Virus record (IMG/VR): IMGVR_UViG_3300031997_000081
Location: 1-20,739 of that record
DNA from: a virus
Length of the DNA stretch: 20,739 bases
Reading direction: 5' to 3' (one strand)
The notes under the pieces were generated by a model. The model was not told the DNA's origin. It worked only from the letters and a program-made list of their open reading frames with translations, and did not search any database. Shown here piece after piece: positions 380-20,739 of this stretch. Numbering within the stretch: the first letter of the stretch is position 1; each line of letters opens with the position of its first letter. The translations under genes were made by a program, and so were the position numbers.

Positions 380-395
380 TATAATTTCTAAAAAT

Positions 396-449
396 AGCAG
401 TCGCGAATGAAAGAGGGGCTTTTCTTTACAATCGTATCATTCCACTGCC
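396..449 (-). ncRNA. Structured RNA element F, solitary copy of the 2301-2819 array motif
   Basis: Read on the minus strand, GGCAGT (444-449) pairs with ACTGCT (396-401), with one G.U at the outer end. A single G faces GCG as an internal loop, and GAATGA then pairs with TCATTC as a second helix. The 3' side continues ATTTTTAG, a short U tract. A UGCC-GAGA-GGCA hairpin with a GNRA-type loop lies just upstream (478-489). The layout matches the five tandem copies at 2301-2819, including the GCG bulge. It sits between the stop of the gene at 521-709 and the start of the gene at 188-379, so it may be a leader element, a terminator or a processed small RNA. Confidence 0.6.
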
Positions 450-520
450 AGTGTTTTGGTTCTTACGGACTATAGGATGCCTCTCGGCAGACGCCCTTAC
501 ACCACAACTACAAGAAGTGG

Positions 521-709
521 CTACCGGCCGTCACACCTTTTCAATTCTTTCTCAAACTCCTCATAAGTCCATCCATGTTCCTCTAAGCAAGCAACCATTT
601 TTTCATGCATGCTATTTCCTGGGAAACGATGGAACGATTTTTGGCAAGCTTCATAAAATGTGATACGCTTTAGCCTGCGAAATGTATCTTCTTCAGTCGA
701 GGTTTGCAT
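521..709 (-). CDS. Small EDTFRR/GWT-motif protein, paralogue 2
   Basis: This 62-residue protein starts MQTSTEEDTFRRLKR and has HGWTYEEFEKELKR at its C-terminal end. It shares both conserved blocks with its neighbours at 188-379 and 693-893, while the middle (FHRFPGNSMHEKMVACLEE) differs. The start at 709 overlaps the end of the preceding gene by 17 bases. The only other in-frame start options are weaker, and GGGA precedes the chosen ATG. It appears to be in one operon with the DUF1289 gene upstream. Function unknown. Confidence 0.7.
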   Translation of the reverse strand: MQTSTEEDTFRRLKRITFYEACQKSFHRFPGNSMHEKMVACLEEHGWTYEEFEKELKRCDGR

Positions 710-893
710 AAGGTCCCATCCGTTCTCTTGCTTCCATTACGAATTCAAACCATGTCCAACCATGTAATTTCATAAACGGAATTCGTAATGATTGATCACG
801 ACTTATTTCGTCGCGCCACCATTGTCCATGAATCCGCAACATCTCATCAAAGCCCGGTCTTGCTAACCTCCTAAAGGTATCATCCTCGGTCAT
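693..893 (-). CDS. Small EDTFRR/GWT-motif protein, paralogue 1
   Basis: This 66-residue protein starts MTEDDTFRRLARPGFDEM and contains LHGWTWFEFVMEAR near the C-terminus. It is the first of three tandem paralogues in transcription order. Its ATG overlaps the TGA of the DUF1289 gene (ATGA), which implies translational coupling. The conserved aromatic-rich GWT block and the charged N-terminal block suggest one small helical fold kept through duplication, with a rapidly changing centre. No function can be assigned from the sequence. Confidence 0.7.
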   Translation of the reverse strand: MTEDDTFRRLARPGFDEMLRIHGQWWRDEISRDQSLRIPFMKLHGWTWFEFVMEARERMGPYANLD

Positions 894-1659: not shown

Positions 1660-2247
1660 TTACATTTTACGATCATTCTGGGCAACGGTCAAGCTGGCCT
1701 GCTTCTTCTTTTGAGGCTTATAGAATTTGTGCCCGTAGATTACAGCAGTCAATCTAAATTCCTTTGACCATTCTGGATACTCATATCCAAGGGCTTCCAT
1801 CGCCTCGGGCGCAAGATAATGTGTAGCACCCTTGGTCGGATCCGGAACCTTCTTCCTCATTACCGCTTGAGCAACTTCCACAGCCTTGGGCCAAGCTTCA
1901 GCATCAATGATATTTTTATGCTTAGGTTCAATGTACAGACTCAGCGCAGCAGTCTTGAGCGCAGGGTTGTCATTAAAGATGCTGTATTGTTTGGGGGCAA
2001 GAACTACGTCGCAAACCGTGCGGTCTACAGCACGATTCACAGCAGTGTAGGCCACTGCCACCTGGCCAATTTGAGGCTCCCCTCGAGCTTCGCCGTAGAT
2101 CATAGTGGCGAGGCATTTTTCATCCTTTAGATTGTATTCTTCCACAATCGTAGGCTCACCAAAAATGATCTTACCCGTGATAGGTGGTGTCATTGCTGGT
2201 GCTAGTATTGCTGGGGAAATGGCAAGTGATAGGAGTAAACATCTCAT
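1660..2247 (-). CDS. Secreted cell wall hydrolase, SleB/Hydrolase_2 family
   Basis: The 195-residue protein has an N-terminal signal segment (MRCLLLSLAISPAILAPA). A Hydrolase_2 (SleB) domain follows at about residues 43-185, with MIYGEARGE (probable catalytic Glu53), GQVAVAYTAVNR, TVCDVVLAPKQYS and KGATHYLAP. Family members cleave peptidoglycan glycan strands, so this is a candidate phage lysis or wall-remodelling enzyme acting in the periplasm. It lacks the separate peptidoglycan-binding domain of spore SleB. The gene has its own strong promoter (2254-2282), whose -10 box ends 6 bases before the ATG, so the mRNA should be leaderless. A five-copy RNA array lies directly upstream of that promoter. 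Confidence 0.88.
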   Translation of the reverse strand: MRCLLLSLAISPAILAPAMTPPITGKIIFGEPTIVEEYNLKDEKCLATMIYGEARGEPQIGQVAVAYTAVNRAVDRTVCDVVLAPKQYSIFNDNPALKTAALSLYIEPKHKNIIDAEAWPKAVEVAQAVMRKKVPDPTKGATHYLAPEAMEALGYEYPEWSKEFRLTAVIYGHKFYKPQKKKQASLTVAQNDRKM

Positions 2248-2253
2248 AGTCCT

Positions 2254-2282
2254 ATTATGCTACAATAGGATATAGATGTCAA
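2254..2282 (-). promoter_or_regulatory. Sigma-70 promoter giving a leaderless mRNA for the SleB-like gene
   Basis: On the minus strand TTGACA (2277-2282) and CATAAT (2254-2259) are separated by exactly 17 bases. Only six bases (AGGACT) lie between the -10 box and the ATG at 2247, which puts the predicted transcription start on the A of the start codon. AGGA cannot act as a Shine-Dalgarno if transcription starts there. Confidence 0.8.
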
Positions 2283-2300
2283 CAGGATAAAGATAAAAAT

Positions 2301-2358
2301 GGTAGTCGCGAAAGAAGTGTAGTTGCCACAAGGTGACCCGTAATAACCTTCCACTACC
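2301..2358 (-). ncRNA. Structured RNA element A, promoter-proximal copy of a five-copy array
   Basis: Minus strand: GGTAGT (2353-2358) pairs with ACTACC (2301-2306). One G faces GCG, then GAAGG pairs with CTTTC; the G.U in that helix would be A.C on the plus strand. The 3' side runs into ATTTTTATCTTTAT, a U-rich tail that ends just before the SleB promoter. An inner hairpin GTTGCC-ACAA-GGTGAC pairs better as plus-strand RNA, the one feature against a minus-strand product. A short, weak hairpin may precede it (to about 2380). Confidence 0.65.
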
Positions 2359-2380
2359 TGTGTGAATATTTCCCCACCTT

Positions 2381-2466
2381 GATAATCGCGAAGAGTAGAG
2401 CGGCGCATGAACTTAATCAGCAGGGATTCTCTTCCATTACCAGTTATACTCCATACGGAGTATAAC
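2381..2466 (-). ncRNA. Structured RNA element B with a 10-bp upstream hairpin
   Basis: Minus strand: a perfect hairpin GTTATACTCC/GGAGTATAAC (2443-2466, loop GTAT) is followed immediately by GGTAAT (2436-2441), which pairs with ATTATC (2381-2386). The G/GCG internal loop and a 6-bp helix GAAGAG/CTCTTC come next. Compared with elements A and C, one stem pair is A-U instead of G-C and another is G.U, so pairing is kept while sequence changes. This copy has no U tract at its 3' end and runs straight into element A. Confidence 0.7.
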
Positions 2467-2475
2467 CTAAAAGTT

Positions 2476-2580
2476 GGTAGTCGCGAATAGATGGAAGTCT
2501 CAAGTGTAGACCGATATTATATTCCACTACCAGTGTATATTTGAACGCCAGTCCACTACTCTGAATCATCAGACATACAC
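2476..2580 (-). ncRNA. Structured RNA element C
   Basis: Minus strand: an outer hairpin GTGTAT/ATACAC (2533-2538 with 2575-2580) is followed by GGTAGT (2526-2531) paired with ACTACC (2476-2481). The G/GCG internal loop, a GAATA/TATTC helix and an inner GTCT/AGAC hairpin (2497-2511) complete it. The 3' tail is AACTTTTAGG. The hairpin loop itself contains a TCTGA/TCAGA stem. Confidence 0.68.
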
Positions 2581-2593
2581 CTTTCTAAAAGTT

Positions 2594-2700
2594 GGCAATC
2601 ACAGAGCAGTGGCTGGGTTCGGTCCGGCACCTTCCTACCGGGATAACCCGGGACACCTTTCCCTGGACATACTCCCACTGCCTGTACCCGGAGCAGGTAC
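2594..2700 (-). ncRNA. Structured RNA element D, GC-rich variant
   Basis: Minus strand: a GTACC/GGTAC hairpin (2684-2700) precedes GGCAGT (2677-2682), which pairs with ATTGCC (2594-2599) through one G.U. The internal loop is G/GTG rather than G/GCG and the second helix GGAG/CTCT is weaker. The interior is longer and much richer in G+C than in the other copies, with a CCGGG-TTAT-CCCGG hairpin (2638-2651). The tail is AACTTTTAG. The T-A to C-G change in the first stem relative to A, B, C and E is compensatory. Confidence 0.62.
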
Positions 2701-2710
2701 CTTAAAAGTT

Positions 2711-2819
2711 GATAGTCGCGAAATCAGTGATGTCTCGGCCGCGGTATCCAACCCAAACTTAGTACGGGCCTCGCACCTACAACATATAATCTCCACTACC
2801 CGTGCCTGGATGAGGGCAC
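2711..2819 (-). ncRNA. Structured RNA element E, first copy in transcription order
   Basis: Minus strand: a GTGCC/GGCAC hairpin (2802-2819) precedes GGTAGT (2795-2800), paired with ACTATC (2711-2716) through one G.U. After the G/GCG loop, GAGAT pairs with ATTTC, again through one G.U. The tail is AACTTTTAAGG. Both wobble pairs would be A.C mismatches on the plus strand. A weak promoter match lies about 20 bases upstream (2838-2866). Confidence 0.66.
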
Positions 2820-2837
2820 CTTTTTCCTAATGAACAG

Positions 2838-2866
2838 ATTCTGCCGCATACCATCGTGAGATACAA
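2838..2866 (-). promoter_or_regulatory. Weak candidate promoter for the RNA array
   Basis: TTGTAT (2861-2866) and CAGAAT (2838-2843) are 17 bases apart on the minus strand, 3/6 and 4/6 matches to consensus. The predicted start near 2831 would fall just before the first hairpin of element E. No better promoter is visible between the array and the gene at 2913. The remaining bases up to 2912 show nothing else I can support. Confidence 0.3.
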
Positions 2867-2912
2867 CATCTTAGTAGAGCGATCTGGAATAGCCCTGTTC
2901 CTCGGCCAGCGA

Positions 2913-3116
2913 TTAGGAAATCTTTGAATTCGTCATCTTTGCTTTTAATTCCTCCAGATAGATAATACGGCCTTCGTACCATTTAACGTGCCCAGGCTGC
3001 GCGAGCTGACGCTCACCCATCAAAAGACTAACCTTGCAATCATTGATTTCATCACTGAGTGCTCTGAAAATGGTCTCAGCCTCCTCATCCGTAACAATGA
3101 AATTAAAATGAATCAC
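2913..3116 (-). CDS. Unknown small protein, GTG start
   Basis: The 67-residue product starts MIHFNFIVTDEEAETIFRAL, continues with a probable second helix and ends with a helical KWYEGRIIYLEELKAKM segment. The GTG at 3116 overlaps the TGA of the upstream gene (GTGA), which fixes the start. The beta strand plus DEEA-led helix at the N-terminus resembles the motif in the 8552-11061 cluster but sits at the other end of the protein, so I do not place it in that family. Function unknown. It is the last gene before the RNA array. Confidence 0.65.
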   Translation of the reverse strand: MIHFNFIVTDEEAETIFRALSDEINDCKVSLLMGERQLAQPGHVKWYEGRIIYLEELKAKMTNSKIS

Positions 3117-3743: not shown

Positions 3744-3811
3744 AAAACTGTTCCTTTCTATTTTGCATCAGCAATGTAAGTAGGCCGATGCTTACTCGAG
3801 ATAAGTATAGC

Positions 3812-4537
3812 ATGTCAGAGAGAAAATGGTCAAATGGTGCAAGCAGAAATAATGGTAAACTCGGCGGGGAAATTATGCGTCAACGACGTATTTCCGAATA
3901 TGAAGCAAATCCTAAAATGTGCAAAGGATGTCAGACTGTTTTAGTTTTCGGTAAGCATCATAATACATTCTGTTCTCAATCGTGTTCTGGCAGGTATTTT
4001 GGGAAAATAAAATCCGATAACACCGTACCGAAACCTCGCACTTATCCTAAAAAGGATAGATCCCTTCGACCACCTTATTCCACTCTATATTCGTGTGTCT
4101 GTAAACACTGTGGATATAGCTGGCAGAATAGATACTCAAAGAAGTATTGTGTAGATCATGAGGATTTATACAGCCATAATGGACGAGCACTATTTTGGTT
4201 TACATTCGGAATATCATCTTATCCAGACCTGTTTGATGGAGAACTTATTAGGCAGCACGGTATGCGTAGTAAAGAAAATCCAAATGGTGTCACAAGAGAT
4301 CACAGAGTAAGTGTAAATGAGGCAATAAGAAACGGATATGATCCGTATTATATTACTCATCCACTAAACTGTGAGCTTATGTTGTTTGATGAAAACAACA
4401 AAAAGAATGTTACCAGCTCGATAACATATGAAGATCTTGTTAGGCAAGTAAAAGAATATGATAGGATGGTAGGCCCTGAAGGAGTCGAACCTTCGCCTGA
4501 CGGTTATGAGCCGACTGCTATTACCACATTAGCTTAG
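3812..4537 (+). CDS. HNH homing endonuclease-like protein with two zinc-finger-like motifs
   Basis: This is a plus-strand gene among minus-strand ones and is AT-rich, as expected of a mobile endonuclease gene. From MSERKWSNG it shows C-x2-C...C-x3-C (MCKGCQ...FCSQSC), then C-x2-C...C-x2-H (CKHCGY...YCVDH). A C-terminal HNH-type block follows, TRDHRVSVNEAIRNGY, with PLNCELM and ENNKKN. An ATG at 3788 is also in frame; I prefer 3812 because the extra eight residues look unlike protein. The last 23 or so codons, VGPEGVEPSPDGYEP and beyond, are tRNA-CAU read in antisense. The true C-terminus is therefore probably near RQVKEYDR, and a native stop seems to be missing. Confidence 0.75.
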   Translation: MSERKWSNGASRNNGKLGGEIMRQRRISEYEANPKMCKGCQTVLVFGKHHNTFCSQSCSGRYFGKIKSDNTVPKPRTYPKKDRSLRPPYSTLYSCVCKHCGYSWQNRYSKKYCVDHEDLYSHNGRALFWFTFGISSYPDLFDGELIRQHGMRSKENPNGVTRDHRVSVNEAIRNGYDPYYITHPLNCELMLFDENNKKNVTSSITYEDLVRQVKEYDRMVGPEGVEPSPDGYEPTAITTLA

Positions 4538-18228: not shown

Positions 18229-19434
18229 TTATTTCCTATTTTGTGGCGAATGACTATCCGGTTCATACCAGGCAGTCATACCAAACGGTGCCACCAAACG
18301 ATGGGCAGTATCGCCGTGAATCAGGAACAATGTGTCGCAATAGAGTTCATCACCCCAGCTACCACACGGATATCCGTCCGTCATCATAATGAATCGTTCC
18401 GGTTGAATGTCGTTGTCCTTCATGTACTTCCAATTGCACATGAAATCAGTGCCGCCGCCACCCTTGATGTCATATTCGTCAATCTCATCCAGGTTCTCTG
18501 GAGTGAACATCTGTTCATTGTAGACACGGGTGTCAAAGCACCAAACACGAAGTTTGAAATCCATGAATTGCTGCATGATGCCTTTGACTTCACTGAGCAA
18601 ATCGCGCAGCATCTCTTCAGACATGGAGCCAGAGCAGTCAATTGCAACGGCTGCTTCAACACGGACATCTTCCTTAGTGCCGGGCAGATAGATACCACTG
18701 GATTGACTCTTGCGCGAACAACGGCTCCACGTGAAGTCATTGCGAAGCATCGATTGGATCTTCATGTTGAGGATCTCACGCCAATCCATCTGCGGTTCGG
18801 TCAAATCCTTCAACATACGCCTCACACCGAGAGGTGTAGCACCAGCACCTGCTGCCTTAGCAGCCTGCATCACAGCATTGCGAATTTCGTCAGCAAGAAC
18901 ACGACGCTCTTCAGCAGTCATCGGTTCACCCTTGCCATCACCCGGTTCAAGGTGGATGTCAAATTCGGGAAAATTCGCATTCGGGTCCTTAAGCAACAGC
19001 TCATAGACCTCTTCAGCAAACATACCCTTGTATTTGGAATCAAAGCATGCCTGAACACCCGAGGTCTTCGGATCCGGCAGCTTACCAACATTGTGCTCGT
19101 GGAGTTCCCAATTGATAACAAAATCAGCAGCAGCATTCCACATCTTCGGCTTGCGGCTACCACGACGACTCATGTGGTCGTAAACGCAGTGTTCAACTTC
19201 ATGAGCAACCAGGAAGATAGTTTCGGCCTTGGTCAATTTGCCAATGAAATTACGGTTGTAATAGAAATAACGACCATCGGTTGCAGCAGTCGGGCACCAA
19301 CCATCGGGATCATCAGTGGCATCCTTGAGGATGAGACGAGTGGCCAGCGTACCCCAAAACGGTTGCTGAAGCAGCAACGAAATACGTGCGCGGGTAAGTT
19401 GTTCAAGAACCGATTCGTGTGTAGGTTTAGCCAT
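18229..19434 (-). CDS. Metallopeptidase-like/von Willebrand A protein (DUF2201 type)
   Basis: The 401-residue protein joins an N-terminal metallopeptidase-like domain, with HEVEH at residues 78-82 and NAAADFVINWEL after it, to a C-terminal vWA domain. The vWA domain has a complete metal site: D266-C-S-G-S270, T329 in GGGGTDF and D353 in MMTDGYP. This is the DUF2201 layout, whose members are usually encoded with MoxR-type AAA+ ATPases, as here (20014-20739). Such pairs are thought to be chaperone-like machines acting on protein complexes or metal centres; the phage target is unknown. It has a near-consensus promoter with a normal leader. The first HExxH pair of ligands is intact, so activity is possible. 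Confidence 0.9.
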   Translation of the reverse strand: MAKPTHESVLEQLTRARISLLLQQPFWGTLATRLILKDATDDPDGWCPTAATDGRYFYYNRNFIGKLTKAETIFLVAHEVEHCVYDHMSRRGSRKPKMWNAAADFVINWELHEHNVGKLPDPKTSGVQACFDSKYKGMFAEEVYELLLKDPNANFPEFDIHLEPGDGKGEPMTAEERRVLADEIRNAVMQAAKAAGAGATPLGVRRMLKDLTEPQMDWREILNMKIQSMLRNDFTWSRCSRKSQSSGIYLPGTKEDVRVEAAVAIDCSGSMSEEMLRDLLSEVKGIMQQFMDFKLRVWCFDTRVYNEQMFTPENLDEIDEYDIKGGGGTDFMCNWKYMKDNDIQPERFIMMTDGYPCGSWGDELYCDTLFLIHGDTAHRLVAPFGMTAWYEPDSHSPQNRK

Positions 19435-20013: not shown

Positions 20014-20739
20014 TTAATCTTCCAGGATGTATTTGCCGAACTTGTCGTGGAAGCCCTTGAAGGTCTTCAGTTGGCGGTGGTTGATAGGCAGAGCATAGTC
20101 GCGCAGCGCAGTCTTCGCACCCAGGACGATCATTTCCGTTTGGAAGTTATCCATCATGTAAGTGAAGAAGTGATCCACGCATTCGTGCCACGTATCCATG
20201 CCAAAACCGTCTTCCTTGGCCTTGGCTTTGCCGACCCACTCTTGCAGAGTGTAGCACATGGAAATCGTCAGCGAATACATCGCGCTCAGATCCTTGACAT
20301 TCAAGTCCTTGACCTTGCCCATCAGCACATCTTCCGACTTCGGCATACGCGCCGCAACCTTACGGTGTGCGCTGAATTCCGTTGCCAAACCTTCGCCAAC
20401 CGTGCCAGCAACCAGCGCGGTATTCATCGATTCCGGCATGTCGTCGCTGATCAGCTGCGACACGAACACCCACGAACGCGGTGTCGCAAACGCCTTGTCA
20501 GACGATTTCGGATCGAAGTTGAACAACTTCTGTTTGTGGTGCGACAAGAAACCAACGACGTCCGGATGAACGCGGTTGTTGATCGCCCACTTCTGCCAGT
20601 CTTCAAAGTTCGCACCCATCTCAATGTGAACCAGACGGTTTGCCAGCGGGCTGGGCATACGGTAAGTCACACCCTTGTCGCTTTCGCGGTTACCAGCGCA
20701 AGCCATTGACACACCCTTCGGGAGGTGATATTCACCAAC
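20014..20739 (-). CDS. MoxR/AAA_5-type ATPase, C-terminal part (5' end outside the window)
   Basis: The frame is open to the window edge, so the Walker A and B region lies beyond it. What is visible begins GEYHLPKGVSMACAGNRESD, the strand ending in the sensor-1 Asn, then MPSPLANRLVHIEM with the expected arginine finger. It continues through a helical lid (DWQKWAINNRVHPDVVGFL, FATPRSWVFVSQLISDD). This is the MoxR/AAA_5 pattern. In-frame GTG and ATG codons near 20712-20706 fall inside the ATPase core and are not starts. With the metallopeptidase/vWA protein it forms a classic MoxR-vWA pair. G+C is clearly higher than in the central part of the window. Confidence 0.85.
   Translation of the reverse strand, partial: VGEYHLPKGVSMACAGNRESDKGVTYRMPSPLANRLVHIEMGANFEDWQKWAINNRVHPDVVGFLSHHKQKLFNFDPKSSDKAFATPRSWVFVSQLISDDMPESMNTALVAGTVGEGLATEFSAHRKVAARMPKSEDVLMGKVKDLNVKDLSAMYSLTISMCYTLQEWVGKAKAKEDGFGMDTWHECVDHFFTYMMDNFQTEMIVLGAKTALRDYALPINHRQLKTFKGFHDKFGKYILED

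Follow-up and report, generated by a model that had tools for sequence, protein, structure and literature searches.

We report a family of structured phage RNAs, apparently undescribed, whose members stand in tandem as double hairpins beside tRNA genes. In the window, by which we mean the complete IMG/VR record of 20,739 bases analyzed here, five copies follow one another on the minus strand ahead of an endolysin gene, and a sixth lies at 387-537. That these elements constitute a real RNA family we regard as virtually certain, because letters change between copies while pairing stays. Each unit comprises two hairpins one nucleotide apart, AAGGU..P1..AC-n-P2; P2 opens with six pairs, beyond which two 3′ bulges enclose a single pair and another helix follows, and the tail is A/U-rich. 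The features to which we refer below are:

2823..2920, minus strand: RNA Y, a conserved stretch immediately ahead of unit E, which UUUCCUAAU/AUUAGGAAA closes; an orthologue is present in L197
2702..2822, minus strand: unit E, with leader AAG, P1 at 2819-2802 (GUGCC/GGCAC), linker G at 2801, P2 at 2800-2711 and tail AACUUUUAA
2585..2703, minus strand: unit D, with P1 at 2700-2684, linker A at 2683, P2 at 2682-2594 (GUG bulge motif) and tail AACUUUUAG
2663..2713, minus strand: 51-base patch differing from L006 (14 of 17 differences), with pairing kept in both versions
2467..2583, minus strand: unit C, with P1 at 2580-2533 (long loop), linker U at 2532, P2 at 2531-2476 and tail AACUUUUAG
2372..2469, minus strand: unit B, with P1 at 2466-2443 (ten pairs), linker U at 2442 and P2 at 2441-2381, without a U tail
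2292..2380, minus strand: unit A, with P1 at 2377-2360 (GUG/CAC), linker A at 2359, P2 at 2358-2301 and tail AUUUUUAUC
2254..2282, minus strand: predicted sigma-70-like promoter of the endolysin gene, TTGACA-17-CATAAT, directly after unit A
1660..2247, minus strand: endolysin gene, a SleB-type cell wall hydrolase (PF07486), the syntenic neighbor of the array
387..537, minus strand: sixth copy, of type 2, with P2 at 449-396 as in the other units, behind a larger conserved upstream domain

A preliminary description of this DNA had placed five elements on the minus strand, with 3′ arms at 2301, 2381, 2476, 2594 and 2711, and all five stand there, the main hairpins of A to E spanning 2301-2358, 2381-2441, 2476-2531, 2594-2682 and 2711-2800 (minus strand). 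The stem GGYARU/AYURYC and the upstream hairpin that it reported are both present, the latter with three pairs in copy A. An A(A/U)YUUUU tail is indeed usual, although copy B (AAGGTGGGG) lacks a U tail. Where an internal loop of G against GCG had been seen, the motif is there but is better read as one covarying pair between two one-base bulges, both on the 3′ strand; in 31 copies this pair is G-C (19), A-U (7) or G.U (5). It had also found no credible protein gene here, and we agree: the sole listed open frame over the array (plus strand, 2609-2830) is a chance one, rejected because two indels in the related contig L006 shift its frame.

Every type 1 copy has P1, which starts with GGU and ends with AC exactly one nucleotide ahead of P2. 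All type 1 copies (n = 31) align gap-free with this one-nucleotide linker, which is mostly A or U, with G and C also occurring, and units are 75-150 nt long. For most units, folding of the single sequence gives back P1, the linker and P2, and the A/U-rich joints between units are unpaired in the predicted folds; folding of the whole array is only modestly better than that of shuffles (z = -1.8). The idea that leader AAAAG and tail CUUUU form a closing helix, judged by eye, was discarded, as it fails where copies have other tails.

Covariation was assessed in gap-free alignments (A4, A8 and A9) from which the variable interiors had been trimmed. Fourteen of the 17 pairs in P1 and P2 vary on both sides, which bears out the earlier observation that the stem sequence changes while pairing holds. 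In P2, 10 of 11 pairs show both-sided change and 95% of cells are paired, a level reached by 0 of 500 shuffles, and slid registers drop to 25-60%. For P1, the 5′ arm was picked by its RAGGU motif, independently of pairing; pairs one to four then hold in 30, 30, 30 and 28 of 30 copies (in shuffles, pairs three and four hold in about 16), and pair three occurs as six pair types. This motif-based test is the cleaner one, since the P1 arms in A8 were partly picked by hand, in five copies without the motif. A tree-based null, in which parsimony counts were redistributed on a FastTree tree as a rough stand-in for R-scape, was applied to 903 column pairs; P2 pairs took the first six places, and the top seven non-adjacent column pairs were all P2 pairs or their next stacked pair. 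Two P2 pairs beat all 90,300 null scores, and support for single pairs is uneven because the remaining P2 pairs have E-values of 0.09 to 1.3. The excess of G.U cells (47) over A.C cells (13) argues that the minus strand is the RNA strand.

A covariance model (R3) built without any copy from the window or L006 nevertheless ranked every window copy above all other matches in the 20.7 kb, with E-values of 2.9e-11 for C, 1.4e-9 for A, 3.5e-9 for the type 2 copy (387-453), 5.1e-7 for D, 1.2e-6 for E and 0.013 for B, the next match in the window standing at 0.14. Comparison with Rfam, which the preliminary description had recommended, gave the array no family at gathering cut-offs, and relaxing the limit to E 10 added only a chance snoRNA match (E 0.32); the GOLLD and ROOL models had no match at gathering cut-offs in the window or in 12 related loci. 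With overwhelming covariation once homologues were added, and with no Rfam family, the proposal of an undescribed structured RNA family in tandem array is supported. We found no named phage record describing it, and no paper in a search of the open-licence literature that took in at most a minority of the Rfam-like candidate lists in supplements, and neither the array nor the type 2 element has similarity in named phage records.

The window and L006 have 8.2 kb in common and are otherwise near-identical, with 17 differences, 14 of them within the 51 bases where unit E ends and unit D starts. Pairing is preserved in each version, as GGCAAU/AUUGCC in L006 and as GGCAGU/AUUGCC with G.U pairs in the window, and the bulge-motif pair in the patch is A-U in the former and G.U in the latter. 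The patch may reflect recombination, rapid change or an assembly effect.

Relatives, found through a DNA pattern and the neighboring endolysin, number about a dozen contigs, including L197 (369 kb), with one to six or seven copies each, and the phages concerned are a little-known group of giant (jumbo) phages. By the similarities of its genes the window, at 20.7 kb, is a fragment from a large phage: the protein encoded at 18229-19434 is 50% identical to a PA5oct-like Pseudomonas phage protein and 44% to a Sinorhizobium phage Phosso protein, and an ATPase fragment (20014-20712) is 52% identical to PA5oct. At most loci the order is tRNA-Arg, tRNA-Met, units, sigma-70-like promoter, endolysin and tRNA-Leu; the three tRNAs flank the array at nearly all loci, and the units are co-directional with tRNAs and genes at every one. 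In five relatives the first unit begins 5-19 nt past the CCA end of tRNA-Met. In the window, the minus strand bears the array, the three tRNAs and nearly every gene around the array, a gene with HNH-like similarity (3788-4537) being the plus-strand exception nearby. The array lies 10 bases ahead of the endolysin promoter and far from the nearest strong upstream promoter-like site, both of them predictions.

Copy number forms a natural series. One unit stands near the endolysin in L008, L009, L021 and L023, two in L004/L020 and in L016, three in L007 and in L011, and five in L014, and L197 has six clear units and one that is degenerate by eye. Unit order differs among phages. Because copy number varies and because a protein gene of roughly 1 kb (in L014) or another RNA (elsewhere) may stand between units, we conclude that the units are independent modules. 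Searches of the 210 kb and 369 kb contigs with R1 and R2 found no credible copy outside two loci, to which the family is thus confined. The same searches gave no match in PA5oct, Phosso, Atu_ph07, SCTP-2 or HK022 (R1 can miss copies with long interiors), and none of 16 bacterial relatives of the endolysin that were tested, at most 39% identical, has a copy. A looser DNA pattern picked out 44 viral stretches; those beyond the known family contigs were treated as chance, since the model places them weakly and mostly without P1.

The interiors of the units had been described as free. Copies within a phage do differ widely, but loops are retained between orthologous copies of different phages. Unit C has an orthologue in L197, copy H5, with conserved loops: the two have TCAGAGTAGTGGACTG and GTCTACACTTGAGAC in common, with 16 identical bases in the P1 loop and 15 in the P2 interior, in spite of different stems. 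Copies may originate by duplication and then become fixed as distinct subfamilies.

We tentatively propose, as the leading reading but with something short of even confidence, that the units are small RNAs acting in trans, which are transcribed together and are alike in chassis but have loops specific to each copy. A conserved chassis combined with conserved copy-specific loops favors separate small RNAs with a common partner and individual targets. A polycistronic transcript from an upstream promoter would carry the units, often as a trailer of tRNA-Met, and cuts in the A/U-rich joints would release or expose them as separate small RNAs. Transcription together with the tRNA/RNA island is suggested by the absence of any interrupting minus-strand terminator-like site and by the position of the units 5-19 nt behind tRNA-Met. 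The constant chassis, that is the junction and the bulged base of P2, would bind one common partner, probably a protein, and the copy-specific loops would give each paralogue its own target. We found no phage Hfq homologue, and the NusG family was likewise without matches. The identification of the units as Y RNAs bound by Ro60 was set aside: Ro60/TROVE (PF05731) has no match among the proteins of four phage records, in a search in which one control rang. The common partner would then be a host protein or an unrecognized phage protein. On the other hand, the conserved loops could serve a contact within the unit instead of a target. In copy C, AGUG and CACU, which lie in its two loops and are both invariant between unit C and its L197 orthologue, could pair with each other. 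A role in cis fits as well, the units being always on the coding strand and upstream of the endolysin. It is also conceivable, although unlikely, that the island is a repertoire of exchangeable RNA effectors, in which a tandem-duplicated chassis with one partner would direct copy-specific loops against host or phage targets and be released with tRNA-Met. If the units do act in trans, phages would have in them a tandem family of small RNAs built on one scaffold.

The main rival to the small-RNA reading, rather improbable in our judgment, is action in cis on RNA polymerase after the manner of put. The put RNA attaches to the zinc-binding domain of beta-prime and promotes read-through. Likewise, each nascent double hairpin would bind host RNA polymerase at its exit channel, rendering the enzyme resistant to pausing and termination on its way through the tRNA/RNA island, a long untranslated stretch, and through the lysis genes. 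In HK022 put, two hairpins lie one nucleotide apart, the junction and the base of stem II are conserved, stem II has bulges on its 3′ strand, and the junction nucleotide G35 pairs with A9 and is essential, any change at this position being inactive in vitro (PMC9378689). The units share this topology of single-nucleotide gap, conserved junction, conserved base of stem II and 3′-strand bulges in stem II, and P1 covaries at exactly that register. They have an invariant G ahead of P1 and a linker that is usually A, which may be compared with the G35-A9 pair, and the island is free of terminators. No bacterial-type beta-prime family match was found in four phage records, in a search in which each of the 14 controls rang, and it is therefore likely that the host polymerase serves these phages. 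The units and put are alike in that stem II is interrupted by unpaired bases and that both are carried in transcripts of phages apparently served by host RNA polymerase.

Several observations weigh against a put-like role. HK022 has no R1 or R2 match, and its put sequence is without the GG/CGCGA motif. All four nucleotides occur at the linker, whereas put requires G35 in vitro. The bulges differ as well, being two single bulged bases around one pair in the units and G42.U65/G43.A64/C44.A63 in put. Put elements are single copies near early promoters, in contrast to the units, which follow tRNAs in arrays and lie immediately ahead of what is predicted to be a fresh promoter, and conserved copy-specific loops would not be expected of such elements. 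Membership in HK022 put was rejected, as the linker is not restricted to G and there is no sequence or profile match. These failed tests lower the likelihood that the units are put, but not that they may work like it; if they do act on RNA polymerase, they would constitute a second, unrelated put-like class.

We consider it doubtful that the units are cis-acting RNA processing or stability elements, which would shield the 3′ ends of tRNA-Met or upstream transcripts or steer cuts between the RNAs of the island. The first units do lie 5-19 nt past the CCA end of tRNA-Met in five relatives, and the joints are A/U-rich and unpaired in the predicted folds, but a general site of this kind would be expected elsewhere too, and none was found in 210-369 kb. 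The elaborate covarying bulge motif and the copy-specific loops also exceed the needs of a simple shield.

It is very unlikely that all elements of the island (RNA Y, RNA X and the units) are parts of a single large, ornate RNA like GOLLD or ROOL. GOLLD and ROOL lie near phage tRNA islands, and one GOLLD is downstream of a Met-tRNA (PMC12286853). The units have a similar location, further conserved RNAs share their island, and in each case we are dealing with phage noncoding RNAs whose function is without explanation. Each GOLLD or ROOL, however, is one RNA that has a fixed architecture and a length of about 500-800 nt or more, whereas the units are modules of 75-150 nt in variable number and order; single-unit phages exist, and in L014 a 1 kb gene separates units. 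Membership was rejected, as no Rfam model matches and there is no single fixed architecture. That the units are a stack of odd transcription terminators, as the preliminary description had considered, is scarcely credible: most copies are indeed a hairpin followed by a short U-rich tail, but a scan of the array (2292-2822) found no minus-strand terminator-like site, tails such as AAGGUGGGG, GGUGGGCGA and ACUAAUUCC lack U runs, and the stems are bulged.

Two further systems invite comparison. T4 stable RNAs C and D (species 1 and 2 RNA) are small and encoded with tRNAs, and their function is unclear; they are two unrelated single-copy RNAs, whereas the units are a paralogous array, and the relation was compared via Rfam only. 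ToxI, of type III toxin-antitoxin systems, consists of short near-identical tandem repeats ahead of the ToxN gene. Both ToxI and the units are tandem repeats of a small folded RNA, but the ToxI repeats are near identical and the units diverged. A search for ToxN near the units (PF13958) gave no match, with its controls also silent, and defense-system models had no match in ten neighbors. Unexplained RNAs near phage tRNAs are a known kind (GOLLD/ROOL, PMC12286853), and what is new is a tandem paralogous double-hairpin family. Several structured RNAs in phage tRNA islands remain unexplained; the function of this one is testable because its covariation is strong, its chassis simple and defined, and its copy number a natural series from one to six or seven.

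The type 2 element stands further downstream in several phages, between small paralogous genes or ahead of varying genes. Ahead of the P2 chassis it has a conserved GGGCGUCUGC-hairpin-GCAUCCUAUAACCCGUAARAACCAAA, and it occurs at L014:5777-5904, L019:8245-8366 and L197:4978-5110 (-) besides 387-537 (-) in the window. Three tandem paralogous small proteins, encoded in the window at 188-379, 521-709 and 693-893 (-), have a common (E)DTFRRL start and no Pfam or PADLOC match. In RNA Y, found only in the window phage and L197, GCCGAGGAACAGG.CUAUUCCAG and GUAUCUCACG are kept in L197. RNA X, likely a three-way junction of about 60-75 nt with the form AAGAAUGCU-ACCAC..GUGGAGCCA..UUCUU, has no Rfam match; it lies between tRNA-Met and the array or within the array, only in this phage group, at L011:5594-5655 (+), at L197:8225-8297 (-) and also in L007, L019, L022 and L015. 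A group I intron at L004:1549-1759 (-) (RF00028, 50.4 bits, at the cut-off) looks to be situated in the tRNA-Met gene, in the anticodon loop region, and at L008:4712-5344 (+) a tRNA 5′ half is followed by a homing-endonuclease-like open frame and then by an intact tRNA-Met.
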